In this document: in pieces, positions 3,253 through 35,559 of the stretch
Layout: each line of letters opens with the position of its first letter
How positions within the stretch are numbered: position 1 is the first letter of the stretch
DNA from: a virus
IMG/VR virus record: IMGVR_UViG_3300008267_000546
Location: 1 to 35,728 of that record
Direction: 5' to 3' (one strand)
Length of the DNA stretch: 35,728 nucleotides
The notes under the pieces: model-generated
The model's database searches: none
What the model saw: the letters and a program-made list of their open reading frames with translations, nothing else
Told to the model about the DNA's origin: nothing
Translations under genes and position numbers: made by a program

Positions 3253-3909
3253 TTAAACAACACATACTAACTTATCAATTCTGCGTATCGCCTGACCTAA
3301 CATTAGTTCTAACAATAACATGACTTTTTCGTCCTTAACATATATGTATTGACCGTTTGTCGATATATTATTTTCTATATTATAAAGCAAAATTGAGCCT
3401 GCTCGTACCTTATCTGGATTTTTTTCTATCCATATAGACACCTCGGGTTTTATTATTTTTCTATTAAATGTAACTTTATAAAGAAATTCAGGAGGATGTT
3501 TTACAATTATAATATTTTGTTCAGTTTCTAACAGTAATTTCATAGATTTCTTAGGTTCCCAAAATTCTGTAACTGAATTTATTTTCTTGGCAATCTTGAG
3601 CAAAACTGTTTTATCATTTGAAAAGATTGATAATGTATTATACTCGCATCTTATTAAATAATTTTTTTCGTTTTTTAAAATTTTATAAATTGATGACGCA
3701 TCTAATAAATCTTCTGGCAATATACGTATATCATGTTTCCATCTAGATATTATAGGATTGGAAACTAAAGAATCTAATTTTGATTTAGCATAAGACAGCT
3801 TACCGCTTCTTTGCAACTCGGTACGGAAAATACCTGCAAGTGGTGTTGTAACACACAACTTATACAAGTATTTTCCATAATGTAGTTTGTTAGTCTCAAA
3901 CAGTTTCAA
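3253..3909 (-). CDS. Conserved hypothetical protein, 218 aa
   Basis: Not recognised. A basic, Lys/Ile/Leu-rich soluble protein without cysteine clusters, membrane segments or nucleotide-binding loops. The N-terminal third (HYGKYLYKLCVTTPLAGIFR) and the phrase ISRWKHDIRILPED look alpha/beta. Its start overlaps the clpA end by 14 bases, so it is probably translated from the clpA message. It is more A+T-rich in codon use than clpA. A link to the Clp system is possible only from position. Confidence 0.55.
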   Translation of the reverse strand: MKLFETNKLHYGKYLYKLCVTTPLAGIFRTELQRSGKLSYAKSKLDSLVSNPIISRWKHDIRILPEDLLDASSIYKILKNEKNYLIRCEYNTLSIFSNDKTVLLKIAKKINSVTEFWEPKKSMKLLLETEQNIIIVKHPPEFLYKVTFNRKIIKPEVSIWIEKNPDKVRAGSILLYNIENNISTNGQYIYVKDEKVMLLLELMLGQAIRRIDKLVCVV

Positions 3910-6142
3910 CGGTTTTTTGTTCTTCCTTTAAGACAATCTCATTGTCTACTACGTCTATATTTATTTTGCCACCATTCTTCAATGATCCAAATAACATAAG
4001 ACGTGAAAGCGGACGTTTAATATCCTTGTCAATAACACGTTGCAACGGTCTAGCACCCATCTTAGGATCAAACCCTTTGTCTACAAGATAATCCAATGCC
4101 TCGTCGGTTACTGTAATTTTGATATTTTTTTCCGTAACTTGTGCTTTAAGATCAGTAAGGAACTTGCCAACAATTTTAAGCATAACAGGTTTACCAAGTT
4201 TCGAGAAGGTGATTGCAGCATCAAGTCTATTTCTAAATTCAGGACTGAAGAATTTTTTAAGTTCTTTATCTTCATAATCCTTTTCTAGAGTATCACCAAA
4301 TCCAATGCTATTCTTTTCTGCTTCTTTAGCACCAAGATTTGTTGTAAGAATTAAAATACAGTTACGTGCATCTGCTTCTTTACCGTTGGATCCTGTAATT
4401 TTGCCATTGTCCATCAATTGAAGCAACACTGCACTTACGTCAGGGTGTGCTTTTTCAATTTCATCCAACAACAATACACAGTTTGGATTTTCTTGCAGCT
4501 TAACAATCAGCTGGCCTGCGTTATCTTCAAAGCCAACATATCCCGGAGGAGCACCAATTAGTTTTGCAACACTGTGCTTTTCTTGGTATTCACTCATGTC
4601 AAATCTTACAAGCTGAACTCCAAGGTGCTTTGCAAGTTGTCGTGCAGTTTCAGTTTTACCAGTACCCGTAGGACCCATAAACACAAAACTACCAATCGGC
4701 TTGTTTTCGTCTTTTAGACCTGCTTGTGCTACTAGAATTTTATCAACAATTGTTTCCAGTGCTTTGTCTTGACCGTACACACTTCCTTTTAAGTTAGTTT
4801 CTAGGCTAGCCAAATTGTCCGTTTCACGTTCTGCAACTTGCTCTTCAGGAATTTTTACAATCTTAGCAAGTTCACGTTGAATGTTTTCTGGTTTTACAAC
4901 CAAGTTTTCATGCAAGTTCAGCACTTTGAATCGCGAACATGCTACATCGATCAAATCAATAGCTTTATCAGGCAGCTTTTTATCTGCTTGATACTTTACA
5001 CTTAGTTTAACCGCAGTGTCGATTGCTTCGTCTGTGATTGTTACATTATGAAAATCTTCATAATACTTTTTAATACCGTGCAAAATTTCTACAGTTGTTT
5101 CTGGTGACGGTTCGTCAACTACAACACGCTGGAATCTGCGCATTAATGCACGATCTTTTTCAAAGTACTTGCGATATTCTTCCCAAGTGGTAGATGCAAC
5201 TACTTTAATGTTACCCTTTGACAATGCAGGTTTAAGCATATTAGCAAGATCGTTTGCACTGTTGTTTCCACCGGCGCCAGCACCACTAATCATGTGAGCT
5301 TCGTCGATAAACATGATAGTCTTTCCTTTGTTTTGCAGTGCGGAAAGAACAAGTTTAAAACGCTCTTCGAAGTCTCCTCGATATTTTGAACCAGCAAGCA
5401 TACTTCCGATGTCAAGTGAGTACACGCTGTATTCTTTTAAAAATTCAGGAACCTGATCGTTTACAATTCTCCAAGCAAGTCCTTCTGCAATAGCAGTTTT
5501 ACCAACGCCTGGATCGCCTACCATGAGTACATTTGACTTTGTACGTCTGCCCAACGCAAGAGCAACTTGTTCAATTTCGTCATGACGCCCAATTACTGGA
5601 TCAATTTTTCCTTGTTTAACATCGGAATTGAGATCTGTAGTAAATGCACGTAATGCCTTGTTTGCAATACCCACGTTTTCGGGCTGTTGTTCTTCAACTT
5701 CTTGTTCTTCAAGTTCGACATTGACATAAGAAACAAACTTGTCTTTGTTAATGTTAGCTTGTTGAGTAATAAAAAATGCGTAACTTCTCTTTTCAGAAAG
5801 TATGCTAATAAACACGTCAACTGTTTCGATTGTAGTTTTTCCAGCAAACAGGCATTGTGCAAATGCTCTATTAAGCACACGTTCTACAGTAGAAGTTTTC
5901 TTTGGTTTATATTTTTGCGATGTAGTTTTAATGTCATCGCACTTGGTTTTCAAGTAAGTTTCTAAGTTTTTCTTTACATATTCAGGATCTGCGCCAAACC
6001 CGGTAATTACAGTTGAAAATTGTTCTTCACACAGCATTGCAAACAACAAGTGTTCAAGGGTAACATATTCGTGTTGCAATTTCCTTGCATCATTAACTGC
6101 TTTATCAAAAACCAGCTGTAACTCTGGACTAGGTTCTACCAT
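3896..6142 (-). CDS. clpA: ClpA-type AAA+ unfoldase, ATP-binding subunit of Clp protease
   Basis: A full-length 748-residue two-ring AAA+ unfoldase. In order: Clp N-domain (about 5-140, with the repeat-like YVTLEHLLFAML), a short linker, D1 with Walker A GDPGVGKT (209-216) and Walker B IMFIDEA (276-282), then D2 with Walker A GPTGTGKT (490-497), Walker B VLLLDEIEK (556-564) and the pore loop GYVG (534-537). Only a short segment separates D1 and D2, so there is no ClpB-type middle domain. The tripeptide IGF at 613-615 sits where ClpA/ClpX carry the loop that docks into ClpP, so the protein should partner with a ClpP; one is encoded at 34942-35559. It would unfold tagged substrates and thread them into ClpP. 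The start is set by AAGGA a few bases upstream and by alignment to the ClpA N-terminus. It overlaps the deformylase gene by 14 bases. Confidence 0.95.
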   Translation of the reverse strand: MVEPSPELQLVFDKAVNDARKLQHEYVTLEHLLFAMLCEEQFSTVITGFGADPEYVKKNLETYLKTKCDDIKTTSQKYKPKKTSTVERVLNRAFAQCLFAGKTTIETVDVFISILSEKRSYAFFITQQANINKDKFVSYVNVELEEQEVEEQQPENVGIANKALRAFTTDLNSDVKQGKIDPVIGRHDEIEQVALALGRRTKSNVLMVGDPGVGKTAIAEGLAWRIVNDQVPEFLKEYSVYSLDIGSMLAGSKYRGDFEERFKLVLSALQNKGKTIMFIDEAHMISGAGAGGNNSANDLANMLKPALSKGNIKVVASTTWEEYRKYFEKDRALMRRFQRVVVDEPSPETTVEILHGIKKYYEDFHNVTITDEAIDTAVKLSVKYQADKKLPDKAIDLIDVACSRFKVLNLHENLVVKPENIQRELAKIVKIPEEQVAERETDNLASLETNLKGSVYGQDKALETIVDKILVAQAGLKDENKPIGSFVFMGPTGTGKTETARQLAKHLGVQLVRFDMSEYQEKHSVAKLIGAPPGYVGFEDNAGQLIVKLQENPNCVLLLDEIEKAHPDVSAVLLQLMDNGKITGSNGKEADARNCILILTTNLGAKEAEKNSIGFGDTLEKDYEDKELKKFFSPEFRNRLDAAITFSKLGKPVMLKIVGKFLTDLKAQVTEKNIKITVTDEALDYLVDKGFDPKMGARPLQRVIDKDIKRPLSRLMLFGSLKNGGKINIDVVDNEIVLKEEQKTVETV

Positions 6143-6653
6143 TTTTTTTCCTTTTTTCTATTTTCTTTTCAGCTAATTTTAACTTTAACTTACTTACTCT
6201 ATCGATAAACTGTATTCCGTGTAGATGATCGTATTCATGCAAAAATATTCTAGCATCAATATCATCGAACTTTGTATCTACATGTATAACATTTTTAAAG
6301 TCATCTGTCAATGTATCAAATTCTACAATACAACTAATAGGACGTCTAACTTTTAACATTAATCCAGGGTGGCTTAAACACCCTTCAATTCCTTCTTCAA
6401 TTTCTTTGCTAATTCCTGTAACAACAGGATTTATTACTACCAACGGTGATCCGTATGTTTTGTTTAACACAGGTTTCATTACAAATATTTGTGCATTTAA
6501 CCCAACTTGATTAGCAGAAATACCTATACCACCTTCTTTATTCATAACATCTATCATGTCAAGTGCAAACGGAGCAGGATGTAATGACTCATAGTCGAAC
6601 TTTTTAACTTGAGTTTCAAGCATTACATTAGGTGATTTTACTAATTGCATCAT
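6129..6653 (-). CDS. def: Peptide deformylase
   Basis: A 174-residue enzyme that removes the formyl group from the N-terminal Met of new proteins. All three family motifs are visible: GIGISANQ (42-49, motif 1), EGCLS (90-94, motif 2 with the metal-ligand Cys92) and HEYDH (139-143, the HExxH metal site with catalytic Glu140). The C-terminal tail is lysine-rich and ends shortly after the last helix, as in phage and organelle-type enzymes. Marine phages are known to carry short functional deformylases. It overlaps dnaJ upstream by 26 bases and clpA downstream by 14, forming a three-gene protein-maturation operon. Two adjacent Met codons make the start uncertain by one residue. Confidence 0.93.
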   Translation of the reverse strand: MMQLVKSPNVMLETQVKKFDYESLHPAPFALDMIDVMNKEGGIGISANQVGLNAQIFVMKPVLNKTYGSPLVVINPVVTGISKEIEEGIEGCLSHPGLMLKVRRPISCIVEFDTLTDDFKNVIHVDTKFDDIDARIFLHEYDHLHGIQFIDRVSKLKLKLAEKKIEKRKKNGRT

Positions 6654-7413
6654 TTAATTCTTTTACCTTTTCTAATATTTTTACATCATTTATTTTTGGT
6701 ACGAAACCTTTAATAGTTACATATAAATTGCCTGTAGTATTACTTTTATTATCTATTAAACCGTGACCTGAAATACTCAACGTTGTTCCAGGTTGAGTTC
6801 CTTTAACTATATTAACACTTAAATTATTTCCTGTCAACGTTTTAACTTCGATTTTAGTTCCTAACATCAAGTCAAACACATTAACTTTCTGTGTAATATA
6901 TAAATGTTTGCCATCTCTATCAAATGTAAGATGCTTTGATATCTTTACAATTACAATAAGGTCTCCTCTAGGAAGTTGAGATATTTTGTTATCTCCAAGA
7001 CCTTTAAATCTAATACCTTCGCCGTTTTCTACCCCGGCATGAATTCTTATAGTAGCAGTTGTACTTTGTCCGTTGAACAATCCGTAGTTTAATATTAAAT
7101 CTTTTCCGGTTAATACGTCTTCTAACGTAATTGTTACTGCTAATTTTATATCTTTATTTTTAGAAAATGCTCCGAAGCTGTTGAATACATCTTCGAAATT
7201 TGTAAATTTAAAGTCAAATGATGATGTTGGAGTATCGTACTGCGATCGTTTCGCAGGATCTTTTAATGTTTCATATGCTTCGTTTATTTCGGCAAATTTT
7301 ACAGAATCACCACCACGGTCTGGATGATGTTCCATTGCAAGTTTACGATATGCTTTTTTTATGTCTTCTTGTGAAGATTGTCTAGTGACACCTAGAATAG
7401 AATAATAGTCCAT
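6628..7413 (-). CDS. dnaJ: DnaJ/CbpA-type Hsp40 co-chaperone without zinc domain
   Basis: A 261-residue J-protein. The J-domain occupies about residues 1-62 (starts MDYYSILGV) with the HPD tripeptide at 30-32 that triggers DnaK ATP hydrolysis. A short Phe-rich linker (SFDFKFTNFEDVFNSFG) replaces a Gly/Phe region, and two beta-sandwich substrate-binding domains follow (LAVTITLEDVLTGK; GIRFKGLGDN; RGDLIVIVKI). The Cys-rich zinc domain is missing, so it is a class B (CbpA-like) Hsp40. It would recruit the host DnaK, as no hsp70 is seen here. It has no Shine-Dalgarno: the ATG lies in the 3' arm of a perfect hairpin, five bases after a promoter-like octamer. It heads the dnaJ-def-clpA run. Confidence 0.93.
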   Translation of the reverse strand: MDYYSILGVTRQSSQEDIKKAYRKLAMEHHPDRGGDSVKFAEINEAYETLKDPAKRSQYDTPTSSFDFKFTNFEDVFNSFGAFSKNKDIKLAVTITLEDVLTGKDLILNYGLFNGQSTTATIRIHAGVENGEGIRFKGLGDNKISQLPRGDLIVIVKISKHLTFDRDGKHLYITQKVNVFDLMLGTKIEVKTLTGNNLSVNIVKGTQPGTTLSISGHGLIDNKSNTTGNLYVTIKGFVPKINDVKILEKVKELNDAISKIT

Positions 7414-7440: not shown

Positions 7441-7456
7441 AAGAAATTACTATTGA

Positions 7457-8115: not shown

Positions 8116-8136
8116 TTAAACAACCCTAATACTCCT

Positions 8137-14061: not shown

Positions 14062-14403
14062 TTAATCTCCTTTTCCTGGATTCTCTGAAAAATACTTTAT
14101 CTTACCCTCAACTCCATGCCACTCTTTTGCATCTGCAGGAGTATCTTCTGGACGCATTTGAGTAATATTAGGCCATAGCTCAGCATACTTTTGATTAAAA
14201 TCTATCCACTGTGCAGCACCATCTGCGGTGTCTGGTAAAATAGCATCAGCAGGACATTCTGGTTCACATACTCCGCAATCGATGCATTCTGCTGGATTAA
14301 TTACCAGCATGTTTTCGCCTTCGTAGAAACAGTCGACTGGACAAACTTCTACGCAATCCATATGTTTGCATTTAATACAAGCATCATTTACAATATACGT
14401 CAT
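14062..14403 (-). CDS. fdxA: Seven-iron ferredoxin, FdxA type
   Basis: A 113-residue ferredoxin with the full Azotobacter FdI/FdxA pattern: Cys9, 17 and 50 for a [3Fe-4S] cluster and Cys21, 40, 43 and 46 for a [4Fe-4S] cluster, plus extra Cys12 and Cys25 as in the family. Conserved text includes [37 protein letters not shown] and the C-terminal WPNIT. It is a low-potential electron carrier. It is not the plant-type [2Fe-2S] PetF known from cyanophages, but resembles proteobacterial FdxA, so it was probably taken from a proteobacterial host. It sits between gp44 and the nucleotide genes in the early run, which suggests supply of electrons to host metabolism during replication; the partner is unknown. 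Confidence 0.95.
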
Positions 14404-19111: not shown

Positions 19112-19669
19112 TTAGCGTAAAAATTCACGCCAATCTAAATTGTATTTTATGCTGTTTATTTTATGTACATCAATCAAGTATAGTACATAACTTGCTACAC
19201 TTGATCCTCTGCCTACGCCCCAAACAATACCATTCTCACGCATAAAGTCCACAAGATAAACCATGTAGCGTAATAGGTTTATCATGCCACGTTCTTCAAA
19301 TGCTTTGAGTTCTTCGCAAACTCTATCCCATTCCGGTGTTTCTTGCATTTCATATGCTTCAAATATACCAGTTTTAGACATAAGTTTGGATATAATATAC
19401 GCACCTACATCAAGGGTTTTATATTCGTCAGGCATGTACCATTCGCTCTGACACACACTGTCAAAAGTCTTTTGATCTACATCTATAGGAATATATTTTT
19501 GTAGTTTAGGAAGACCTTGATCTTCCATAGCACTGTTAAACCGGTCAACATCGTCACTAGGATCACATAGAACTACATGGCACTTGTCTATATTGCCACT
19601 GTAGATCATATCTATGAGATCGCGGTTAGAGAATCTGGGTATACCTAGTTCATCAGTTTTCATAAGCAT
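19112..19669 (-). CDS. Truncated family-C DNA polymerase (DnaE palm) homologue
   Basis: A 185-residue protein whose C-terminal 50 residues match the start of the palm of bacterial Pol III alpha: LLRYMVYLVDFMRENGIVWG, then VGRGSSVASYVLYLI and IKYNLDWREFLR, equivalent to DnaE text around GPGRGS...GSLVAYAL and LLFERFLNPER. The protein stops where DnaE would continue to the DxD catalytic aspartates, so it cannot polymerise. T4-like phages replicate with a family B polymerase (gp43, not in this window), so this may be a regulatory decoy, a clamp or host Pol III binder, or a relic. Two ATGs (19669, 19663) are possible; no good ribosome site is seen. Confidence 0.75.
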   Translation of the reverse strand: MLMKTDELGIPRFSNRDLIDMIYSGNIDKCHVVLCDPSDDVDRFNSAMEDQGLPKLQKYIPIDVDQKTFDSVCQSEWYMPDEYKTLDVGAYIISKLMSKTGIFEAYEMQETPEWDRVCEELKAFEERGMINLLRYMVYLVDFMRENGIVWGVGRGSSVASYVLYLIDVHKINSIKYNLDWREFLR

Positions 19670-24382: not shown

Positions 24383-24630
24383 TGCAAATCAACCCAGCCT
24401 GCTGTACTGTCACCAGTGTCTGCTGCATATCCTTGAAATTTACCAGTTGTAAGGTTATAAACAAACATTCCTTCTGTAGGAGTTATATTATCGAGCTGTG
24501 ATTGTGTATATTGAGAAGGACCGTTATATAATTCAGTAAAGTTGCTGTTGATCTTAGTAAAGGCTGTACGTAACGGATCGCCGTCACCTTTGTTTGCACT
24601 TGACCCTACATTAATGTTTTGTTTTGCCAT
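24379..24630 (-). CDS. Small structural protein with shared N-terminal motif, 83 aa
   Basis: Starts MAKQNINVGSSANKGDGDPL and continues RTAFTKINSNFTELYNG, the same N-terminal module as the 1912-aa fibre directly upstream (MAKQEVNIGVEGNDGTGD). The remainder (GMFVYNLTTGKFQGYAADTG) looks like a single beta-hairpin tail domain. It is in effect the fibre attachment module with a very short distal part. The ATG overlaps the upstream TAA by one base. Could be a shaft-less decoy subunit or a connector. Confidence 0.65.
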   Translation of the reverse strand: MAKQNINVGSSANKGDGDPLRTAFTKINSNFTELYNGPSQYTQSQLDNITPTEGMFVYNLTTGKFQGYAADTGDSTAGWVDLH

Positions 24631-27600
24631 TATACTCTTCCTACTACTACTTCGACGATACCTTTACTATCATCTGTCTTATTACCAACTGCTTTACCTA
24701 TTACAGTTCCGACACGTGGATCATTGTCAACAATACCATATCCTGGTATCGCACTTGTAACAATTAAGTCACCTTTTTGTACGTGGCCAAGAACCTTAAC
24801 TGGAACACGACCTTGCAGCGCAATGCCAGTTACAAACTCGCCCTCTAGCGCACTGTTCATCAAGTGTGCAGGATTAGTTGTAACAACACCTGCTACTCTG
24901 CGATCGCCCTTGGTGCTGGTTACAGTAACTTCATGCTCGCCGCCAAATACCAGTACGGTACCGGGTTCGTAACGACTGTCTCCTAAATAGTTTTCTGCCA
25001 AGTCAGCGTATAATGCTTCAGTTGCAACACCATTAAACACTGTAGCGTAAACTGTGTTCCATCTGTTGCCAGTACCACCTAGCATTTGTCCGCTGTCTGT
25101 AGGACTGTTTGCACCCGGAAGTATACTTCCTGTAATAGTCATACCTGTTTTAACATTAAACGACTGAGCACCTGTTGTAGTTGTTATAACAACTAAATCA
25201 TTAGGCGATACTGCGTTGTCTGTTATGCTCAACGCATCAGCTAAGTTAGTAGGCAGTACTATTTCGTTTACAGTTGTTGCACCAGCAAATGTAAGTTTGT
25301 TAAGTCCGGTCATTAAGCCGGCAGTAAATCCTAGTGTGTTGGTACTAGGAACCCAGGTTAAGCCGGTGTCTGTAAAGTGAGCCAACGAACCAGATGTAGC
25401 AGTAACAAATGTCGGATAGTGTGTACCTGCATCAGTGTTTCTTGCTGCAATTGTTACTGTACTTGAGTTAGTAGCAGATGCAGCACTACCTGAAGTATTT
25501 GCGTTAATTGTAGCAGGTAGTCCGATTGTTACTGTGCCGCCCGATTGTGTTACTTCAACTTCGCTAGCTGTGCCGCTGAAAGTAAGTGTGCCGCCCAAGG
25601 AGATGTTTGAAGGTGTGCTTCCGTCAGTAACAGTAATACTACTGTTTGTTAGCTTGTTGTTAGCAATGCTACCAGCAAGCATAGCATTGGTTATACCACT
25701 GTTTGATACATTAATCCATCCGCTGGTTGCAGTAAATGTAGCACTATCAAAGCTAGCCAATCCTAAATCTGCTTGTGTAATGCTAGTAGCATTTGCTCTA
25801 GTTGTTGCTGCTGTCATAGCCAATTTGCTTTGACTTATTGCAGCACTTGCACTAACGTCTGCGTTAACAATTACACCTGTACTGATTGATGTTGTTAGTG
25901 CAGTGCCATTGTAACTGAATCCAATGTCTCCGCTAACAGTAGCATTTTCCCATTTGCCTGCTACAGCGTCATAAACCAGTGTTTGTCCTGCTGCTGGAGT
26001 TGCAATATTCATGTCAGTTAATTCAGACAGTTCGTTAAATGCTGCTACTTGTCCGTCAACATAACCTTTGGTTGCAGCATCACTATTGTTGGTAGGTGTT
26101 GCAAGGTCAACTACGTTGTTGCCGCCCATGTTAAGGTTGCCAGTCATAGTGTCGCCGGTTTTCTTAACAGCGCCGCCGCCGATGATATCACCAGCTAAGA
26201 TTGCCGAACCGTTTCTGTCCCAACCTAGACGTCTGTTAATATACCCTTCAACCGCAGTTTCAGTAGGAACTGCGTCACCTTGCGCATTTGTAAAACTGTC
26301 GTCTGCTGAGAATTCGTTTACACGTACACCACGTTTAAAACCAATACCGTCAATGTTGGTAAGAACAAGTGCAGCGTTAAATGTAACACTACCTGTACCT
26401 TGGTCAACTGTAAAGAAACGTCCTACACGGAAGAATCCGTCTTGGTCTGTACTTGTAAAGAACACACGACCTTTTATTCTTTCTTGCACTTGTGCTGTAA
26501 GAGCAGTACCGTTTTCGTCAATTGAGTTTTCAGAAGATACCCAAGTGTTAACCGGAGCACCGTAAATTCTTGAAGGATAGTTCGAAGCATTGTAACCGCC
26601 AGTACCGATGTACAAGAAGTCATGTCCTGTTGCACGGCAAGTACTGATGTTAACAGTTACAGTTGCACTTTCGCCTGCGTCAAGCGTTGCCTTTAATGCG
26701 TTTGTTCCACCTGTGGTGTTGTCAACTCTTGCAGAAATACCGTTAGTGTGGCTGTCATTGATAGAATATACATCGGCAAATCTAATAACGCCAAAGTCGC
26801 TGCCATCGTTTTCAACTGTGTACTCTGTGATTCTGTGTACAACACCGTTCCATGTAAACAGCATGTTTCCGGTATTGACTCTATTAGGATCGTTGCCTTC
26901 CAGTAGTGCAATTGCTATAACAGTATCACCAGCAGTTGCACCCATGGTACCTGCTGAGTCAACACTTGGATCACCGGCTCTGTCGTTGTCTACCAACAGG
27001 TTAACATCGTCAAAGTTTGCATCTGTGGTAATTTTAGTTACATTTGCTGGAGTTGGAACAGATCCTACAATACTTGATTCAAACGCAATGGTTCTATAAG
27101 TTTGCGATTCTTGTTCAGTAAACACCATTGCAGTACTTGGACGAGTGGCCAAGTTTGCCGGAATTCCGTTGATTAAAAACGCAGTTTTATCTCTGTAGTT
27201 ACCAAAGGTACCAAATGGTATATCTTCTTGTACACCCGATGCACCAGTTGAAACACCGCTGGATAAGTCAAGTCTCCAAATCTTTGCACGTATAGCAGTA
27301 TTGGTACTATCGCAAAGAGATGCTACTTTACCTGCTGGTATTACAGCACCCGTGTCTGTAGCTGTAACTACAGCATACGGATAGTATAATCCGCTAGTGT
27401 GCTTGATTTCAACTTCTGCACCGTTCATTGGATAGTTTGTTAAGTCATAAACAAAAAGTGCATTATCTGCTTCGTCTGCTGTGTAATCTAGTGTAGTAAC
27501 AGAAACCGCAGCACCGAAGTTTGTTGGAGACTGTTCTACATCATCGCTGTTATTAAATGATCCATTTACTAAGTTATTAACGTAAACATCGGTGTTTCCG

Positions 27601-30368
27601 CCTGTCTCGTTAGTAAACACTACGTTACCAGACACTGTTACTGCACCTTGGGTTTGCGTAATAGTAGAACTATCGGCAATACCTAAACTTGTACCAGATA
27701 GTTTTACAATTTGGTTACCATAACTGTTGTTTCCTGACAACGATCTTATTGAAGAACCATTTATAGCATAGTAACCAATGTGACAGTAGTATGTAAATAC
27801 GCTAACAATTTCTGATGTAGCGTTGTTTGTTGCAACTATACCATAGCCTTGGTCGTTAACCTGAGTATAATCGTTTGCTAGTATAGATTTGTTTCCGCCC
27901 ATCAACAGGTTTATATCAATTACACCCAGTGCCGAATCAACCGAATCGTCAAGTCCTTGGCCTTCATTGCTGGTTTCGTCAAGTACAAGTGTAGCAGATG
28001 CGACACCTGCTGTGTTGGGTATATAATCCTTAATAGCGTTAACTTGATATCGTCTGCCACCAACGTAGAAACTTGTAGGAAGAGTAGGTTTACGTATACC
28101 CAATCCAGAACCGCTAGGCGCTTCAACTTGTATTTCAAAATTGTTTGTTTTATCAACAATACGCATTGGCATATTACCAGCATATCCGTCAATTAACATG
28201 CCGCCGGCAAAATGCTTTTCATTTATACTTCTTGCAAAACTTGTACAAGATTGCACAAACGGAGATTTTGAAAGTATCTGTCCTTCCGGATCTAACACTG
28301 TAGCAAATCCGCCGTGATTTTGGAAAGTCAACGACTTTATTGACGTTCCGTCGTTTAACAAGAATATGTCTATCTCGTTGTTGTATTTTGCTGTACTGTT
28401 AGGATTGTTAGGATCAGTTAAGTAATGATGTCCAAAGTATCCTTGTAGTGTACTGTCAGGAGAGTAGTGTCCGTCACCAGTTAACGCAGTAGCCAGTCCG
28501 TCGGTTGTAGCATCTCTGTAAAAGTAAATATCTGCCCACGTAGATGTACTTCTGCCTGCTGCTGGTCTAATTATTGATCTTCTAAAATCATCACCAATAA
28601 CTGTGGTGTTAACAGGAACTCTTATAGGTAGCTGTTCTTCGTATATACCAGTTTCCACGTTGATTGTGATTTGTTGTGTATTGGTTATACTACTGTATTC
28701 GACAATTTCACTTGCACTAAATTCAACAGGGGTTAATAGTTGAACTTCGATTGTATCGTAGTTTGGACTACCTACTGTATCTATACCCCTAGAGTAAGAA
28801 AGTATACGTCCTACTGCACCTGTGGTTTTACCTCTGATACCTTTACCTGGAAAAATATCTGGATTTGAAACAATAGATTGATCAGTGTATTTGTTCGGTC
28901 CAGAATTAATAGTAAATGTATAATAGTTGGTGCTTTCAACCAAAGTAGGGTCGGGTGTTGCACTGTTGATCGTAGTTAATACAACATCAAATAAGTTTGA
29001 AACTGCTGTATACCAAGCACCTGTTACACCTGCTGTTGTTAGAGCAGCAAGCATCAGTGTCTTGGCTTCTGTTATTGCAAAAGAAGTTTGTGTATATTGC
29101 CCTGTTGGAGCAATTAACGCTTCTGAACTAGGGTTGGCGTAATATCTTAATCCTGAATAGCGTGATAGATAGTTTTGTTTAATCCCTGTAGTGCTTGCCT
29201 GTATGTCAAGTTTTACTGCATCGATTATATAAGCTAAATCATCACGATACTGTGTTTCGTTATAAACAAATGTAGGGTATTCTGCGTCTATTGCGTCTAT
29301 AACATCATCTATTACAGAACTGACTACGCTTTCAATAGTAGATGTTATAAGATCCTGTGTAGCATTGGTAGAATAAGCAGCTATTGAGTTGACTGTGCTG
29401 TCAACAGTGTTACCCGATGATTGATATGTTACAGTTTGTACGTATGGACCCAATTCAGGAGCACTGGCTTGTTGCAATCTTTCTGCTTTTTGTGCAGCTT
29501 TATTAACAGTTCTAAATGAGTAACTTAATGCACGACCTTCTTTTCCCGGAGGTGTGTTTGTTTGTGTATCATTACCAGAAGTCGAAACGTATAATTGTAC
29601 AGTGCTGATGAAAGAAGAGCTGTCAACATAATACTTTGTAGCAGCTTGCAAATCGTATTCGCTGCTTGGTGTACCAGCACCTTCAAACGGATAAGGGTGA
29701 TCGCTTAGATACAACGCACCTGTCATTGTATCGCCTGCTTTTTTAACAACTTCACTTACTCGAGGAACTTGAGATCCAGTTGCACCTGCAGGTACTACTA
29801 ACGCACCTGACATAGTATCGCCGGAAACGTTGACGTATTTTAAATCGCCATATCCTTTTGAAATTAACAAGTTATCTTCAGTAATTGCTGGTGTTCCGTG
29901 TGTGGCGTTCCAGTCTGTAACCAATGCTCCTCTGTTTCCGTCATCCAACATTAGGTTTTGTATAGTACTTGAATATGCTGTAGCTGCACCTAATTTAAAT
30001 GCATTTGTTACTTCAGGAGAAGGGTCAGTTGAAACTCTTGCATTAATAGCTCTAACCACTAGCTTGCCTGCATCAATGGTAAAGGATATAGTGTTTGCAG
30101 GGTCGCTAGGGTTGTTTGTGCCAGCGTCTGATACCAGTTCAAAGAACTCTATACCTGTGCCTGCAGAGTTTACCATAACAACTTTTTCTTCGTTGCCTAG
30201 TAATTCATCAGGAGTATCATCTAAAGAGGTAAAACTAATATTACCGCCAAGACCGAAAACTGCATAGATCTCTGTAAAGTTTTCATTTACTTTACGGAAG
30301 GATTCACGAATACTGTCGCCAGTACCGTCATTGCCCTCAACGCCAATGTTTACCTCTTGTTTTGCCAT
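24630..30368 (-). CDS. Giant tail-fibre-like protein, 1912 aa
   Basis: The largest gene in the window. N-terminus: shared motif NIGVEGNDGTGDSIRESF then RKVNENFTEIYAVFGLGG, probably the virion attachment part. Phage-fibre repeats follow (GDTMSGALVVPAG, KKAGDTMTGALYL, AATKYYVDSSS at roughly 180-250) and again near 1410-1470 (KKTGDTMTGNLNMGG, DAATKGYVDGQ). The middle is a long beta-helix-like domain (about 500-1100). The C-terminal about 120 residues (LYADLAENYLGD, EPGTVLVFGGEHEVTV, VAGVVTTNPAHLMN) are a conserved fibre-tip domain of marine myophages. It probably forms the long tail fibre or a spike that contacts the host. GGAG lies before the ATG. Confidence 0.82.
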   Translation of the reverse strand: MAKQEVNIGVEGNDGTGDSIRESFRKVNENFTEIYAVFGLGGNISFTSLDDTPDELLGNEEKVVMVNSAGTGIEFFELVSDAGTNNPSDPANTISFTIDAGKLVVRAINARVSTDPSPEVTNAFKLGAATAYSSTIQNLMLDDGNRGALVTDWNATHGTPAITEDNLLISKGYGDLKYVNVSGDTMSGALVVPAGATGSQVPRVSEVVKKAGDTMTGALYLSDHPYPFEGAGTPSSEYDLQAATKYYVDSSSFISTVQLYVSTSGNDTQTNTPPGKEGRALSYSFRTVNKAAQKAERLQQASAPELGPYVQTVTYQSSGNTVDSTVNSIAAYSTNATQDLITSTIESVVSSVIDDVIDAIDAEYPTFVYNETQYRDDLAYIIDAVKLDIQASTTGIKQNYLSRYSGLRYYANPSSEALIAPTGQYTQTSFAITEAKTLMLAALTTAGVTGAWYTAVSNLFDVVLTTINSATPDPTLVESTNYYTFTINSGPNKYTDQSIVSNPDIFPGKGIRGKTTGAVGRILSYSRGIDTVGSPNYDTIEVQLLTPVEFSASEIVEYSSITNTQQITINVETGIYEEQLPIRVPVNTTVIGDDFRRSIIRPAAGRSTSTWADIYFYRDATTDGLATALTGDGHYSPDSTLQGYFGHHYLTDPNNPNSTAKYNNEIDIFLLNDGTSIKSLTFQNHGGFATVLDPEGQILSKSPFVQSCTSFARSINEKHFAGGMLIDGYAGNMPMRIVDKTNNFEIQVEAPSGSGLGIRKPTLPTSFYVGGRRYQVNAIKDYIPNTAGVASATLVLDETSNEGQGLDDSVDSALGVIDINLLMGGNKSILANDYTQVNDQGYGIVATNNATSEIVSVFTYYCHIGYYAINGSSIRSLSGNNSYGNQIVKLSGTSLGIADSSTITQTQGAVTVSGNVVFTNETGGNTDVYVNNLVNGSFNNSDDVEQSPTNFGAAVSVTTLDYTADEADNALFVYDLTNYPMNGAEVEIKHTSGLYYPYAVVTATDTGAVIPAGKVASLCDSTNTAIRAKIWRLDLSSGVSTGASGVQEDIPFGTFGNYRDKTAFLINGIPANLATRPSTAMVFTEQESQTYRTIAFESSIVGSVPTPANVTKITTDANFDDVNLLVDNDRAGDPSVDSAGTMGATAGDTVIAIALLEGNDPNRVNTGNMLFTWNGVVHRITEYTVENDGSDFGVIRFADVYSINDSHTNGISARVDNTTGGTNALKATLDAGESATVTVNISTCRATGHDFLYIGTGGYNASNYPSRIYGAPVNTWVSSENSIDENGTALTAQVQERIKGRVFFTSTDQDGFFRVGRFFTVDQGTGSVTFNAALVLTNIDGIGFKRGVRVNEFSADDSFTNAQGDAVPTETAVEGYINRRLGWDRNGSAILAGDIIGGGAVKKTGDTMTGNLNMGGNNVVDLATPTNNSDAATKGYVDGQVAAFNELSELTDMNIATPAAGQTLVYDAVAGKWENATVSGDIGFSYNGTALTTSISTGVIVNADVSASAAISQSKLAMTAATTRANATSITQADLGLASFDSATFTATSGWINVSNSGITNAMLAGSIANNKLTNSSITVTDGSTPSNISLGGTLTFSGTASEVEVTQSGGTVTIGLPATINANTSGSAASATNSSTVTIAARNTDAGTHYPTFVTATSGSLAHFTDTGLTWVPSTNTLGFTAGLMTGLNKLTFAGATTVNEIVLPTNLADALSITDNAVSPNDLVVITTTTGAQSFNVKTGMTITGSILPGANSPTDSGQMLGGTGNRWNTVYATVFNGVATEALYADLAENYLGDSRYEPGTVLVFGGEHEVTVTSTKGDRRVAGVVTTNPAHLMNSALEGEFVTGIALQGRVPVKVLGHVQKGDLIVTSAIPGYGIVDNDPRVGTVIGKAVGNKTDDSKGIVEVVVGRV

Positions 30369-30382: not shown

Positions 30383-30745
30383 TTATACCATAAATTCCGG
30401 AATGTCCATATCAAAATTTACACTTACACCGCAACCGCAACTGCTTTTTGCATTTGGGTTACGTATTTCAAAATTTGAACCTACTAGGCTACGAACATAA
30501 TCCACTTCAGTACCAATTAAAAACATGATACTATGTGCGCTAACTACAAATCTACCTGCGCTATCGGTGTGAACTATTTCATCACCTGGATTGAGATCGG
30601 ATGGATGTGCTACTGTTCCCCAGTCGTATTCAAATCCTGCACAGCCGCCGCCTTTGATATTTAAACTAATAGCATAGCAGTCGTTTTCTCGGCAAAGATA
30701 GTCGATCTGTTTTTTAGCTGAATCAGTTAGTGTGCAAATAGTCAT
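30383..30745 (-). CDS. A-type Fe-S cluster carrier (IscA/ErpA/HesB-like)
   Basis: A 120-residue A-type carrier. The three cluster-binding cysteines are intact: Cys35 in GGGCAGFEYDW and Cys103/Cys105 in NAKSSCGCGVSVNF, the family C-x(n)-CGC pattern. These proteins receive clusters from the assembly scaffold and pass them to apo-proteins. Related proteins are known in cyanophages. Here it could serve the phage's own FdxA (14062-14403) as well as host enzymes. It sits between the fibre gene and the plus-strand zinc-ribbon gene and has its own upstream promoter-like elements. RBS AAAGGA is upstream. Confidence 0.9.
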   Translation of the reverse strand: MTICTLTDSAKKQIDYLCRENDCYAISLNIKGGGCAGFEYDWGTVAHPSDLNPGDEIVHTDSAGRFVVSAHSIMFLIGTEVDYVRSLVGSNFEIRNPNAKSSCGCGVSVNFDMDIPEFMV

Positions 30746-30761
30746 TTTAATTCCTTTCTAA

Positions 30762-30795: not shown

Positions 30796-30802
30796 TATAG
30801 TT

Positions 30803-31251: not shown

Positions 31252-31492
31252 TTGACAATCTCCTGATTTGTTTTTCAAGTACAGCAAGCCTATTACCTTG
31301 CTGTCTTATTTTTTCTTCAAGACCGTTAACGTATGCTTCAGTAGGAATACGCTTTTCTTGTCCATCTTCGCCAAGCATTGTAAACGTATCTACTCCAGCG
31401 CCTTTTAGACCGCCAAGAACACGATTAGGGTTTTTTTCTTTAACATTGTTATGTGGCATCTTACTGCCATACATTTGCGATAAGTAACTCAT
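31202..31492 (-). CDS. Small coiled-coil protein, 96 aa
   Basis: N-terminal half is polar (YGSKMPHNNVKEKNPNRVLG); the C-terminal half is a heptad-like helix (VNGLEEKIRQQGNRLAVLEK, QIRRLSNDQ). No family is recognised. The ATG has no Shine-Dalgarno; a CATAAATA octamer ends four bases before it, but this also spells the last codons and stop of the preceding gene, so its meaning is uncertain. It overlaps the 54-aa membrane gene by 50 bases. Confidence 0.55.
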   Translation of the reverse strand: MSYLSQMYGSKMPHNNVKEKNPNRVLGGLKGAGVDTFTMLGEDGQEKRIPTEAYVNGLEEKIRQQGNRLAVLEKQIRRLSNDQKMDRQSFSRTINR

Positions 31493-31495
31493 ACT

Positions 31496-31852
31496 TTATT
31501 TATGTTGTTCTCGCTTGACCCAATGGTCAGCTTTGAACTGTTTTACGTCTGTAACTGCACTAGTAAGCACGCCTGCATAGTTAATTGCAGTCTGCTCATC
31601 CAGCACAATTGTTGTCTGCATCTCAGCATAACCCTTTGTAAGAATTTGCCAAATTTGCTGCCAACGATTCATTTTCCACCATTTAGTATGATTCTTTGCA
31701 TATATGTGAACCTGCACATCGCAGTCGTCTGCTTCCACGTTCAGTTCATGTGAACAGTCATCATTGCCACAGCTACAGTGAATATGATACCATTTGCTAT
31801 CACCCCATTCGCTGGTTTTTAAAATACCTTGTGCCGGTGTTTCAGGCTTCAT
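31496..31852 (-). CDS. Conserved phage hypothetical protein, 118 aa
   Basis: Not recognised by function. Has HIHCSCGNDDCSHELNVEAD with three cysteines and two histidines, a possible metal site, followed by Trp-rich text (KWWKMNRWQQIWQILTKGY) and a helical C-terminus. Resembles small conserved proteins of T4-like cyanophages. Its start overlaps the UvdE end by 11 bases. Confidence 0.62.
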   Translation of the reverse strand: MKPETPAQGILKTSEWGDSKWYHIHCSCGNDDCSHELNVEADDCDVQVHIYAKNHTKWWKMNRWQQIWQILTKGYAEMQTTIVLDEQTAINYAGVLTSAVTDVKQFKADHWVKREQHK

Positions 31853-32876
31853 TGATCAACTCCTTGGTATATTGTTTGTAAAGTTGCTGACTTGCAAGAT
31901 TCTTCATCTTTGCTTCTACCATAATATCAAAGTCTTGCCAAAACGTCAAGACCCAATCATTAGATGCTGTATTCCAGCAATAGTCACTGTGCGCTCTCAG
32001 TTTCGCTTTTTTGTAACCTTCTTGGAGGAGCGTTTTGTAATCTGGCCGTGTATTTGTTTCAGTTGTGGGAATAACGTCTTCACGGCTAATGCTATAATGA
32101 AGAACGGGCCTAACACCGCGCCAGCTATCAATAATTTTTCTAATACGTCCATCGTTTGCCTCAATATATTCGCCGGTCTTGACCCAGTGGTGATGTACGT
32201 CTAGCACCAAAGCGAGATCGTTTGCAAGCTCAAGACTTGCTTCGAGTCCCCAGCTGTTTTCGTCGTTTTCGATAGTAATAGTGTTTCTTGCTTCTGGCGA
32301 GAGGCGTTTAAGCACGTCTTTGATACCGGCTGGACCTTTGCGTCCTGAGATGTGGACATTGCACTTGAAATCTTGAAACCGGCGGCCGTAGCCCATCCAC
32401 CTGATGATATCTGCATGATATTCAAACTCCTCGATACTACGTTCTACAATTTCTGGATCTTCGCTGGCAAGCACTGTAAATTGTCCAGGGTGCATACTTA
32501 CACGAACATCCAATGCTCTTGCAGTTTCTCCAACTGCACCGTAGTGTTTTTCGCAGTATGCAACCACATCTGGTTTTTTCCAAAAGTAACGCCAGCTGGA
32601 TTCGGTTGCACAAGGAAGCTGGTTGCTGCCAAGACGTACCATTCTAAGTTCAGGAGGCAGACTGCCTACGTATTCTATCAGTCGCTTTGCGGCAGCGGCA
32701 TTATGTTCCATGATGTCCCAAAGACGTTGCTCTGCTACATCACGTGTCTGTCTGTTCAGCCATGCAACTGTAGTGCATTTTTCAGTAAGCGGCCGTTGCA
32801 ACTCTTCTAGAATCTTTGCTGGTTGATTCTGATTGTGGTGAAGATATTTACAAGCAAATCCTATGCGTTTGTGCAT
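31842..32876 (-). CDS. uvsE: UV damage endonuclease (UvdE/UvsE)
   Basis: A 344-residue TIM-barrel repair nuclease that nicks DNA 5' of UV photoproducts. It starts HKRIGFACKYLHHN, the family N-terminus, and contains VRLGSNQLPC, VSMHPGQFTVLAS, NTITIENDENSWG and LVLDVHHHWV, which hold the metal-binding His/Glu/Asp residues, plus HSDYCWN near the end. T4 uses the unrelated DenV for this; a UvdE gives a surface-ocean phage light-independent repair. The frame is open to 32930, but AGAGGA six bases before the ATG at 32876 and family length support that start. Confidence 0.93.
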   Translation of the reverse strand: MHKRIGFACKYLHHNQNQPAKILEELQRPLTEKCTTVAWLNRQTRDVAEQRLWDIMEHNAAAAKRLIEYVGSLPPELRMVRLGSNQLPCATESSWRYFWKKPDVVAYCEKHYGAVGETARALDVRVSMHPGQFTVLASEDPEIVERSIEEFEYHADIIRWMGYGRRFQDFKCNVHISGRKGPAGIKDVLKRLSPEARNTITIENDENSWGLEASLELANDLALVLDVHHHWVKTGEYIEANDGRIRKIIDSWRGVRPVLHYSISREDVIPTTETNTRPDYKTLLQEGYKKAKLRAHSDYCWNTASNDWVLTFWQDFDIMVEAKMKNLASQQLYKQYTKELINEA

Positions 32877-33103
32877 TCTAGTTCCTCTCGCCAAACGATA
32901 ATGTTGGCAGTATACTCTGTTACATTCCAATTGTTAGGATCGCCAAATTTTGAACGAGTTCTAAACAACACTTCATCCTTGGTCTCACCGTACTCGTAAC
33001 CGAGGAAAGTGAGGCCAGCATATATCATATACGTTCTTATCATACGTTTACTATATGCGACTTCTTTACAGTTGTCAATACCAATTTGCACGTGGCCATT
33101 CAT
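32861..33103 (-). CDS. Hypothetical protein, 80 aa
   Basis: Not recognised. Mixed alpha/beta, with YMIYAGLTFLGYEYGETKDE in the middle and WNVTEYTANIIVWREELECT near the end. No motif. It overlaps the glycosyltransferase end by 29 bases and the UvdE start by 16; the alternative Met21 or Met26 starts would remove the first overlap. Confidence 0.5.
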   Translation of the reverse strand: MNGHVQIGIDNCKEVAYSKRMIRTYMIYAGLTFLGYEYGETKDEVLFRTRSKFGDPNNWNVTEYTANIIVWREELECTNA

Positions 33104-33899
33104 CTATACATTCGTCCATGTTAGGAGTTCCATGAAATACTGCAATACTTGTGTCTGGTAAAATTGTAGGGACACCTGGCTTTTTAAAATTACGTTTTCC
33201 ATTTACAACAGTTAATTCCGATCTGCCTCGCATTTCCCATTTATAACTCTGTACCCACTCATCTGGCCAAAATATATGATTTCGTATATTTGCAAACATA
33301 AAGTCTTGGTCTCCAGGATACTTGCGTTGTATAGCAATTGCGTCTTTTTCAAACAATTCGTAAACGTTGTTGTATTCACCGATTTTTATTCTAAACACAC
33401 TGCTGTTCATACGATCCCAATTTTTTCGTACTTGCCTGTTAAAGTCACGTATAATAACAAATGGAGAATCTTGTTTGTAAAGAAAGTATCTGTCAATGTT
33501 TCTAAAAATAACAAGGTCTAGATCAAAGAACAGTGCAGTTCCTGTTATAGGTAACTTATTGCTTAAAAACCAAACCTTATACCACCAACCTTGCAAGTTT
33601 ATACTCGGTAGGGGTTCTGTGCGTATGTGTTTATCTATACCTTGGGTGTCGTCTGTAAAACAGATGAATTCGTAATCTAGTGTACAATTGCGCTTAACCA
33701 TATTGTACAATTTGTTAACATACTCGGGTCCGTACTTTGTACCCCATTTTAAACAAATTACATAATTCTTTTTTGTAGATTGTTTGTATGCTTCGAGGTA
33801 TCCTCTCACATAGTCAGTTCGCTCAACAGTGGAAAGGCCCTGTTTTTCTAGGGCCTTTCTACGTTTGCGTTGTTCTTTACTTTCGTCCCACGTTTTCAT
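33075..33899 (-). CDS. Glycosyltransferase, GT-A fold with DxD motif
   Basis: A 274-residue protein. After a basic 35-residue leader (SKEQRKRRKALEKQG), the fold begins NYVICLKWGTKYGPEYVNKL with YEFICFTDD, as in GT8-like nucleotide-sugar transferases. The DxD motif is FFDLDLV (Asp126, Asp128), binding metal and sugar nucleotide. Later blocks: GDQDFMFAN and IAVFHGTPNMDE, where the His is often a metal ligand. It could modify phage DNA, virion proteins or host surface glycans; the target is unknown. Overlaps the QueD-like gene by four bases. Confidence 0.82.
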   Translation of the reverse strand: MKTWDESKEQRKRRKALEKQGLSTVERTDYVRGYLEAYKQSTKKNYVICLKWGTKYGPEYVNKLYNMVKRNCTLDYEFICFTDDTQGIDKHIRTEPLPSINLQGWWYKVWFLSNKLPITGTALFFDLDLVIFRNIDRYFLYKQDSPFVIIRDFNRQVRKNWDRMNSSVFRIKIGEYNNVYELFEKDAIAIQRKYPGDQDFMFANIRNHIFWPDEWVQSYKWEMRGRSELTVVNGKRNFKKPGVPTILPDTSIAVFHGTPNMDECIDEWPRANWY

Positions 33900-34402
33900 T
33901 CAAGAAGATTTTCATTCCATTCTCTGTGGCCTTCACGGAATGCCATGTTTGCTTGTGTTTCTCTAACTTCTACTCTGTAGCACCACAGACGCTCTGCTTC
34001 ACTAGGACCCCACATGTCTGGAATATAAACACCGTTGACATACTTGTACAGCATGTCTGCCAGGCTTTCGCAGCCGAGTTTAGGCAACACTGTCAGCTTT
34101 GCCATCTTGCGGCGTTCTAGCTCACGATAGATATCCATGTTAGGATCATCTTCTCCAACTAGTAGTGTATGATCAAACTGATCTTCGAGCACTCGTTTAA
34201 GTTCTTTAAGCCCGCCGTAGTCAGCAGCCCAATTTCTTACATCTAGATCATTTGTTCCAAAGTAGAACTTCATGCTAAATGCATAACCATGAATTGTATT
34301 ACAATGACTATCTGCACGCCACTGGCGATATGCACAAGGAAATGCATCTACATATTCTTTTGTGCTTGTGTATTTGTATGTTACTGGATTATAATTACCC
34401 AT
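33896..34402 (-). CDS. QueD/6-pyruvoyl-tetrahydropterin-synthase-like protein with altered zinc site
   Basis: A 168-residue T-fold-type protein. The family core is visible: HCNTIHGYAFSMKFYF (33-48), RNWAADYGGLKELKR and DQFDHTLLVGEDDP. In QueD/PTPS the zinc ligands are the His of a FxAAH segment and both His of HGH. Here the first is Tyr25 (FPCAY) and the HGH is HGY (38-40), so two of three ligands look replaced, while the catalytic-type Cys34 remains. Activity in 7-deazaguanine/queuosine synthesis is therefore uncertain, or a different chemistry is used. It follows a 107-base leader with a possible RNA fold, and overlaps the glycosyltransferase. Confidence 0.75.
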   Translation of the reverse strand: MGNYNPVTYKYTSTKEYVDAFPCAYRQWRADSHCNTIHGYAFSMKFYFGTNDLDVRNWAADYGGLKELKRVLEDQFDHTLLVGEDDPNMDIYRELERRKMAKLTVLPKLGCESLADMLYKYVNGVYIPDMWGPSEAERLWCYRVEVRETQANMAFREGHREWNENLLE

Positions 34403-34488
34403 ATTTTACCTCGTTGGTTGAGGGGGCGGAATGTTTTAAGTGGGTCGATCCCTGTATAGTCCACTTGCTGTTAGCAATAATACTTATC
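34403..34488 (-). promoter_or_regulatory. Leader of the QueD-like gene: promoter element and ribosome-site hairpin
   Basis: The gap 34403-34509 holds no gene. Minus strand GATAAGTA (34488-34481) is promoter-like. Downstream, AAGTGG (34466-34461) can pair with CCACTT (34443-34438), and CCTC (34423-34420) with GAGG (34412-34409), the ribosome binding site, over a 7-base loop. A C-rich run (CCGCCCCCTC) is unusual for this AT-rich genome. Suggests a structured 5' UTR controlling the QueD-like gene; I do not recognise a known riboswitch class. Confidence 0.4.
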
Positions 34489-34509
34489 ATTTTTAAAATA
34501 ATAACTGAT

Positions 34510-34827
34510 TTATCCGATTGTGTCAAAGTCAATTTTAACCGCTTTAACACGATCATACCGGAAGCTACGCCATGCCGGAGGATCAATGTCAACTGCCCAT
34601 ACAACAAAAACTTTATCTTCTAAGTTGCGTATTTTGGCTTGACTTAGAATATCTTCTCGTTGTGCAGGCGGCAACATTCTTGGCATGAGCGTACATTTCA
34701 TTGTACGCTCATCGCCATTTAGTTTATCAAATGTAACGTCGACTATTTCATCACTGAGCAAGTCTAACAATCCTTGTCTTGTAGGAATGTTTTTCATTTC
34801 TGCAATAGCATCACTAACTTTATTCAT
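34510..34827 (-). CDS. WYL_2 (DUF2693-like) small SH3-barrel protein
   Basis: A 105-residue protein. The C-terminal half has LNGDERTMKCTLMPRMLP, followed by VFVVWAVDIDPPAWRSFRYD and RVKAVKIDF, which match the Sm-like/SH3 beta-barrel family found in many marine phages (WYL_2). Such proteins are thought to bind nucleic acids or ligands; no role is established. AAGGA before the ATG at 34827 sets the start; the longer open frame to 34917 overlaps the 41-aa gene and is unlikely. Confidence 0.7.
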   Translation of the reverse strand: MNKVSDAIAEMKNIPTRQGLLDLLSDEIVDVTFDKLNGDERTMKCTLMPRMLPPAQREDILSQAKIRNLEDKVFVVWAVDIDPPAWRSFRYDRVKAVKIDFDTIG

Positions 34828-34945
34828 TGGTATCCTTACACGTACAATTGCGTCCTTGGTTGCAGTCGTTGTTACACCGAGCAGCAGGTGTTCTGCTTTG
34901 TACTGCCATCCAAACAAGTACTACAGCTAAGATCAACGCTATCAT
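34820..34945 (-). CDS. 41-aa Cys-rich membrane-anchored peptide
   Basis: A tiny gene read directly from the gap between clpP and the WYL_2 gene. Sequence starts [20 protein letters not shown] (a hydrophobic anchor or signal) and continues with a tail [16 protein letters not shown] carrying four cysteines (C-x3-C-x5-C-x-C). Its ATG overlaps the clpP TGA (ATGA), and its end overlaps the WYL_2 start by eight bases, so it is well placed in the operon. I recall a similar DCNQGRxCTC tail in marine phages. Function unknown; cysteines could bind metal or form disulfides in the periplasm. Confidence 0.65.
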
Positions 34946-35559
34946 CGTTTGTCGATCACTTTGTCAGCTAATCCGTACTCAACTGCTTCTTCTGCACTCA
35001 AGAACGTATCAAACTTCATGGTGTCAAACAGTTCGTCGTAGTTCTTGCCCACGCTGTTATGTTTAACATAAAGTTCTGTGAGACGACGGTTAAGACGTTT
35101 TGATTCTTCCATACTGCGAATAGCATCTTCAAACTGTAGTTCTTGCACGTGAACGCTGCCGCTTGTACCACGTGTGCCGGAACTTACACGATGAATCATT
35201 GTACGGCTTTCGGGCAACACATAACGTTTACCCGGTGCACCTGCTTGTGCAAGAAAACTGCCCATGCTTGCTGCTTGACCCATTACAATAGTTTTAATGT
35301 CAGGCTTGATAAACTGCATGGTATCATAGATAGCCAAACCAGCAGTTACGCTGCCGCCTGGACTGTTGATATAAAGACTGATGTCTTTTTCGGGGTTTTC
35401 TGCTTCAAGGAATAGAAGTTGTGCCACAATCAAGTTAGCCATATTATCTTCTACAACACTGTTTAGCATAACAATACGGTCTTTGAGCAAACGACTGTAA
35501 ATGTCGTAGCTACGCTCTCCACGGCTTTCTTGTTCTACTACGATTGGTACTAGTGGCAT
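34942..35559 (-). CDS. clpP: ClpP serine protease subunit
   Basis: A 205-residue ClpP of normal bacterial length. N-terminus [20 protein letters not shown] matches cellular ClpP, including the axial-loop and hydrophobic segments. Catalytic triad intact: Ser98 in GQAASMG, His123 in RTMIHR and Asp184 in KFDTFLS. The NSPGGSV oxyanion block (65-71) is present. The handle segment ([15 protein letters not shown]) differs from the usual HQP-GG text, the main divergence. It should form the tetradecameric chamber and partner the phage ClpA (3896-6142), and possibly host ClpA/ClpX. AAAAGGA precedes the ATG. Prohead proteases of some phages share the fold, but this is a housekeeping-type ClpP by N-terminus and triad. 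Confidence 0.95.

Follow-up and report, generated by a model that had tools for sequence, protein, structure and literature searches.

A phage genome fragment probably encoding its own ClpAP-type protease, with a long-handle ClpP in which the ring-ring contact motifs are replaced

Genes encoding a ClpA-type unfoldase and a ClpP peptidase have been identified on a viral DNA stretch of 35,728 nucleotides (IMG/VR record IMGVR_UViG_3300008267_000546), which was analysed over its whole length and is referred to here as the window. The two genes probably provide the phage with a ClpAP-type protease of its own, in which ClpP is a long-handle variant with replaced ring-ring contacts and a conserved unfoldase-facing surface. 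The record is a linear viral fragment of 35.7 kb, and both clpA (3896-6142) and clpP (34942-35559) are located on its minus strand. The plus-strand reading of both loci is rich in stop codons, and the open reading frames lie where a first-pass annotation, made from the sequence without database searches, had placed them. A megablast comparison of an 8.2-kb stretch with phages matched no near-identical isolate.

The gene clpA encodes a protein of 748 amino acids (aa) that contains both AAA+ modules. The Walker A motifs of the first (D1) and second (D2) modules are GDPGVGKT (residues 209-216; 5495-5518) and GPTGTGKT (residues 490-497; 4652-4675), respectively, and the Walker B motifs are found at residues 278 and 558. 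A KYR pore loop is present at residue 253 and the GYVG pore-1 loop of D2 at residues 534-537 (4532-4543); the role of a GYVG-type loop is taken from PMC9663308, which, like the other papers cited here, is represented by extracts of its text. An IGF tripeptide at residues 613-615 (4298-4306), predicted to form the ClpP-docking loop, faces the IGL of Escherichia coli ClpA (1ksf) in an alignment that spans residues 6-731 of the window protein. The full length of ClpA, the two Walker sets, GYVG and IGF had all been named in the first-pass annotation, and the open reading frame, the motifs and the 1ksf alignment bear them out. The best NCBIfam match is TIGR02639 (893 bits, under its cut-off), and phrog_4871 matches with 839 bits. 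TIGR02639 covers the protein in one stretch (6-730) and scores above the models of ClpB, ClpV1 and ClpK, whose matches are split in two; no middle domain is present.

The gene clpP encodes a peptidase of 205 aa with no propeptide at its start. It matches Pfam CLP_protease PF00574 with 224 bits (cut-off 20) and NF001368 with 265 bits, which passes the cut-off of 249, and the catalytic residues Ser98, His123 and Asp184 are present as annotated earlier. The triad is intact in all 88 rows of the ClpP alignment. As sequence matches, those of ClpA and ClpP to their families are both far beyond chance. An AlphaFold2 monomer model built on a wider alignment (pLDDT 89) replaced a first model with a pLDDT of 72; residues 128-134 fall below pLDDT 50. 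The best superposition of this model on solved ClpPs, with low-confidence stretches omitted, gave a Z score of 29 and a root-mean-square deviation of 1.0 Å over 187 residues.

The best PHROG match of this ClpP is phrog_94 (155 bits), which carries the label "head maturation protease", and the RefSeq-style records of Pseudomonas phage PA5oct are labelled likewise. A role in head maturation is nevertheless very improbable. The protein is more than 50% identical to cellular ClpPs, and no capsid genes are found among its neighbours in the 35.7-kb fragment, in which a prohead protease of the phage itself was not seen. A T4-type prohead protease (PF03420) is encoded separately in 11 of 23 records, including 9/9 of those of at least 198 kb. 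Because relatives carry this separate protease and the window gene has no capsid neighbours, the window ClpP is most likely not a head protease.

The pairing of the two genes was followed in related viral records by whole-record searches of 50 of the 80 loci of each kind (ClpA and ClpP), chiefly on longer contigs. By raw count, a ClpP-family gene was present in 8/50 ClpA records and a full ClpA in 12/50 ClpP records. Since most records are short, the sequence left on the partner's side was counted for each of them. Among ClpA records that extend 60 kb or more upstream, 8/8 contain PF00574, encoded on the same strand at a distance of 32-65 kb, and ClpA was found in 9/9 ClpP records with at least 60 kb downstream (eight downstream, one upstream), the 60-kb threshold having been set after the numbers were seen and some of the records being near copies. 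The corresponding counts for ClpA records were 8/12 at 40 kb or more, 8/17 at 30 kb or more and 0/33 below 30 kb, and those for ClpP records were 12/17, 12/28 and 0/22, respectively. Relatives that seem to have one gene only, which the first-pass annotation had regarded as potential evidence against a pair, nearly all end before the partner's place. Co-occurrence in relatives is new support for a joint action of the two proteins. The distance of about 29 kb given there is correct for the window, but since the record is a fragment, this is the separation within the fragment only, and relatives show about 30-65 kb. In two records of about 300 and 316 kb (loci L123 and L149; records G078 and G094), ClpA lies upstream of ClpP and not downstream, so gene order is not fixed.

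All of nine named ClpA-carrying isolates, chosen from the match list and including Rak2-like phages with distant ClpPs, contain PF00574 at 141 bits or more. A match to the ClpS family (PF02617) at E ≤ 1e-3 is also found in 9/9, in eight of them over the cut-off, and ClpS is present in 12 of 20 large viral records. The Acinetobacter "phage" MD-2021a (L204) was considered as a further ClpAP phage and left out because argC, aroF and bioH adjoin its clpS-clpA genes; the contig, although filed among phages, seems to be bacterial DNA.

In the window, clpA is the last member of the gene run DnaJ - peptide deformylase - ClpA. The peptide deformylase (174 aa; 6129-6653, minus strand), identified by its motifs and PF01327 (115 bits), overlaps both neighbours and shares 14 bases with the beginning of clpA. 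The DnaJ-type co-chaperone (261 aa; 6628-7413, minus strand; PF00226, PF01556) contains no cysteine and thus no zinc finger; its HPD motif is retained at residue 30, so that it is predicted to be able to call host DnaK. Among the 80 loci (L002-L081), 56 have at least 3 kb of upstream sequence, and in 56/56 of these a DnaJ gene is found within 3.5 kb upstream of clpA on the same strand. The deformylase gene lies between the two in 40/56.

This tie of ClpA to DnaJ, with clpP 30-65 kb away, would also fit an arrangement without a dedicated pair, in which ClpA acts alone or with host ClpP as an unfoldase or disaggregase together with DnaJ, and phage ClpP serves mainly host ClpX or ClpA. Docking residues look conserved on ClpA and on ClpP alike, and a fit with partners from the host is therefore expected. 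The near-constant co-occurrence of clpA and clpP after allowing for cut contigs speaks against this arrangement, which is considered unlikely. The T4-type late promoter word TATAAATA, sought as a sign of a shared late class for clpA and clpP, had no match in the whole window, against 3.46 expected.

Support for an encoded ClpAP-type protease also comes from the surfaces through which the two proteins are predicted to dock. Alignments of ClpP (88 rows) and ClpA (93 rows), in which the window is L001, contain gene repeats, and distinct proteins were therefore counted separately. IGF is found in 93/93 ClpA rows and in 75/75 distinct proteins including that of the window, down to 46% identity to the latter. 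Residues on both sides of the tripeptide vary, and so do its codons: all three Ile, all four Gly and both Phe codons are used among 82 distinct open reading frames. On the side of ClpP, Arg205 (34945-34947, minus strand) aligns opposite E. coli Arg192, which contacts the IGF loop and whose replacement in R192K abolishes ClpX binding, as stated in the extract of PMC7112951. This position is arginine in 69/70 distinct long-handle and 67/67 short-handle phage ClpPs. The hydrophobic cleft positions, which we take to include a tyrosine at position 60, are mostly kept in the window ClpP, with serine in place of Y60 and tyrosine in place of F112; a general loss of cleft residues, which the first-pass annotation had thought would speak against docking, was thus not seen.

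The window ClpP differs from ordinary ClpPs in the handle (residues 124-168; 35056-35190, minus strand) and in its ring-ring motifs, neither of which the first-pass annotation had mentioned. By alignment, the window ClpP has about 12 extra residues, about 10 of them after the catalytic His in the handle and two past the helix, and the AlphaFold2 model shows a single extended helix at residues 136-167. The elements that join the two ClpP rings are, according to the extract of a review (PMC9035409), the handle (a strand and helix E), the HQP and QXT motifs and the oligomerization sensor. In the window ClpP, HRV and TSG stand in place of HQP and QXT, so that RV replaces QP after the catalytic His, and KFD, with Lys182-Phe183 (35011-35016, minus strand), replaces the Glu/Asp-Arg sensor. 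With HQP, QXT and the sensor all replaced, the protein is termed a variant.

These changes are shared by a class of phage ClpPs. Handle classes (long and short) were defined by handle length alone, so the contrast in motifs is an independent result. The comparison left out the Staphylococcus aureus row, the divergent ClpP-like proteins L168, L169, L219 and L221, the truncated L251 and repeat loci. Long-handle phage ClpPs comprise 70 distinct proteins (86 rows); as these rows were collected through similarity to the window ClpP, they are silent on the frequency of the class. HQP is replaced by HRV in 69 of the distinct proteins and by HRA in one, the sensor is KFD in 86/86 rows (70/70 distinct), and QXT is missing from 86/86 rows. 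Short-handle phage ClpPs have HQP and Glu/Asp-Arg-Asp in 67/67 distinct proteins, and ordinary bacterial ClpPs from the same order and family have both in 59/59. This pattern suggests that the ring-ring interface changed as one unit, and the phage ClpAP is possibly insulated from host ClpP rings.

The same comparison bears on the idea that phage ClpP mixes into host ClpP rings or poisons them, thereby retargeting or blocking the host protease. The short-handle ClpPs of other phages, which keep HQP and Glu/Asp-Arg-Asp in 67/67 distinct proteins, could mix with host rings in this way. For the class of the window ClpP the idea is quite improbable: with HQP, QXT and the sensor lost and the handle longer, its rings would not be expected to stack on an ordinary ring of the host, and its catalytic triad is intact.

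Several observations weigh against the preferred reading, that of a phage-encoded ClpAP-type protease. The late choice of the 60-kb threshold and the near copies have been described, and co-occurrence is lower at looser thresholds. Two of the eight ClpA records (L040 and L041, near copies by their spacing) contain only a divergent ClpP-like gene of 94 bits. ClpS has no match in the 35.7-kb window. The window ClpA reaches 893 of the 993 bits of the TIGR02639 equivalog cut-off, which 0/50 of the other viral records searched reach, and the window ClpP reaches 252 of the 309 bits of TIGR00493; the proteins are accordingly named a ClpA-type protein and a ClpP family member and not certified equivalogs. 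Cleft position 60 is serine in the window ClpP, although ordinary bacterial ClpP rows have histidine there in 58/59, so that tyrosine is mostly absent from them also. The docking-arginine position is not arginine in any of the six Rak2-like/SCTP-2 phage ClpPs; these are distant proteins, for which the same docking is not to be assumed despite co-occurrence. The earlier proposal that the phage makes ClpA and ClpP as its own protease is partly supported, by co-carriage in relatives, the invariant IGF and the conserved ClpP arginine.

A long-handle ClpP is also found in bacteria. When 84,980 species genomes were scanned with patterns derived from two conserved stretches in the C-terminal half of long-handle ClpP, five loci were recovered, titled Marinobacterium or Oceanospirillaceae. 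In these five genomes the long-handle type is the only full-length PF00574 protein, one of them having a second, marginal match of 20 bits. The clpP loci of this type include L207:7608-8276 and L209:7611-8273; in the two loci inspected by eye, the gene is flanked by what are presumably the genes of trigger factor (tig) and ClpX. The long-handle type occurs in 6/116 genomes of the family of one carrier, and the ordinary form in 54/60 sampled genomes of that family. In the order sample (1/194) and the class sample (1/369), only the starting genome has it. Like the window ClpP, these housekeeping ClpPs (L205-L209, L255) have a long handle, HRV and no QXT; unlike it, they are cellular genes with a longer N-terminus and the sensor KHD in place of KFD.

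The origin of the bacterial type was addressed with trees from which the handle columns were excluded. The first tree joined the bacterial and phage long-handle ClpPs with support of 99/98. The second, which contained more bacteria and from which the Rak2-like/SCTP-2 rows and PA5oct were additionally omitted, joined the bacterial long-handle ClpPs with ordinary bacterial ClpPs (99/93). Approximately unbiased (AU) tests rejected neither grouping (p 0.44, 0.28 and 0.35), and outside the handle the bacterial long-handle ClpPs share about 79-80% identity with their best match, whether on the phage or on the bacterial side. Because the trees conflict and the AU tests reject neither, replacement of a host gene by a phage gene as the origin was dropped. 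A broader proposal is offered only tentatively: the long-handle ClpP may be an orthogonal barrel, in which the interface set (handle length, HQP, QXT and sensor) has been swapped and the unfoldase-facing side retained, so that phage rings would stack only with one another and form a protease separate from host ClpP that still takes ClpA of the phage and perhaps unfoldases of the host. Transfer of this type might have occurred between phages and bacteria of a Marinobacterium-like lineage, in which it is now the only full-length ClpP.

The first-pass annotation had stated that phages more often carry ClpP-like prohead proteases or inhibitors of host proteases. Rarity of the pairing of ClpA and ClpP in one phage is not borne out, since isolated jumbo phages have both genes and the combination has been in print since 2018. 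The extract on the Agrobacterium jumbo phage Atu_ph07 (2018) lists ClpA, a ClpP-type subunit, ClpS and DnaJ (PMC6102473), a set of Clp genes with DnaJ is in print for Sinorhizobium phage AP-J-162 (PMC11242549), and a jumbo-phage survey names ClpP, ClpA and ClpS and suggests host proteins as ClpP targets (PMC7824862, extract). The pair is thus of a known kind. In Atu_ph07, as in the window, ClpA (gp292) lies beside DnaJ (gp293), and the proteolytic subunit (gp676) and ClpS (gp708) are encoded in the same phage; unlike in the window, the ClpP (L210) is short-handled with HQP, and the stretch shown has no deformylase separating DnaJ from ClpA. Sinorhizobium phage Phosso has the window's order DnaJ - peptide deformylase - ClpA together with ClpP and a ClpS match, but its ClpP is short-handled and 61% identical to that of the window. 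In Pseudomonas phage PA5oct (Wroclawvirus), ClpA likewise follows DnaJ and ClpP is long-handled (63.5% identical), and ClpS and ClpP are encoded on the same strand some 13 kb further upstream; its handle has diverged (HRA, glycine-rich) and no deformylase precedes ClpA. The PA5oct record (L194:7953-8624) flags ClpP with ESI-MS/MS, indicating its detection by mass spectrometry; ClpA carries no such flag. E. coli ClpAP (1ksf; 1tyf/6uqe) shares with the window pair the domain order, the pore loops, the triad and the position of the docking loop. The window pair differs in having IGF for IGL, a handle about 10 residues longer, replacements of HQP, QXT and the sensor, and no propeptide. The literature covered, with subscription journals mostly outside that coverage, yielded no account of an insertion in the ClpP handle combined with changes in HQP, QXT and the sensor. 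Nor were the co-occurrence after allowing for cut contigs, the DnaJ cassette in 56/56 loci and the long-handle ClpP with swapped motifs found described in the literature searched.

Other genes on the minus strand of the window include one encoding a UV-damage endonuclease, UvdE (31842-32930; PF03851, 127 bits), presumably an uncommon repair gene in a phage. An open reading frame of 185 aa (19112-19669) matches, over residues 110-184, only a piece of bacterial DNA polymerase III alpha (PF07733), which makes it a free-standing piece of a replicative polymerase domain. A tail-fibre-like protein of 1912 aa (24630-30368; phrog_9851) adjoins a protein of 1044 aa that contains an Ig-like domain, and a QueD-like 6-pyruvoyl-tetrahydropterin synthase (33896-34402; phrog_2389, PF01242) is encoded near clpP. 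The window also contains genes for an A-type iron-sulphur carrier (30383-30745; PF01521) and a ferredoxin (14062-14403; Fer4), both on the minus strand, and the extract of a paper on marine viral genomes (mSphere, PMC5332604) places ClpP beside iron-sulphur genes. Both could be taken to mean that the protease system is aimed at iron-sulphur proteins. The evidence is one of co-location only and the idea names a substrate class, not another machine; it is given very little credence.

If the preferred reading of a phage ClpAP holds, substrates would be unfolded by a hexamer of ClpA and passed via its KYR and GYVG loops into the barrel of phage ClpP, a predicted tetradecamer. ClpA would be held on this barrel by insertion of its six IGF loops into clefts of a ClpP ring. 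ClpA would be made beside DnaJ and peptide deformylase, and DnaJ could recruit host DnaK. Relatives that encode an adaptor of the ClpS family, at another place in their genomes, may use it to deliver N-degron substrates. The purpose may be proteostasis or turnover of the proteome during infection by a phage with a large genome.

The loose idea of a phage-run ATP-dependent protease has become testable through the conservation of the DnaJ-ClpA cassette, the synteny of ClpP and the invariance of the docking loop. The long-handle ClpP represents a natural redesign of the interface that joins the two ClpP rings and controls the activity of the enzyme. It merits a structure because the usual contacts are missing, while some bacteria evidently live with this type as their sole full-length ClpP.

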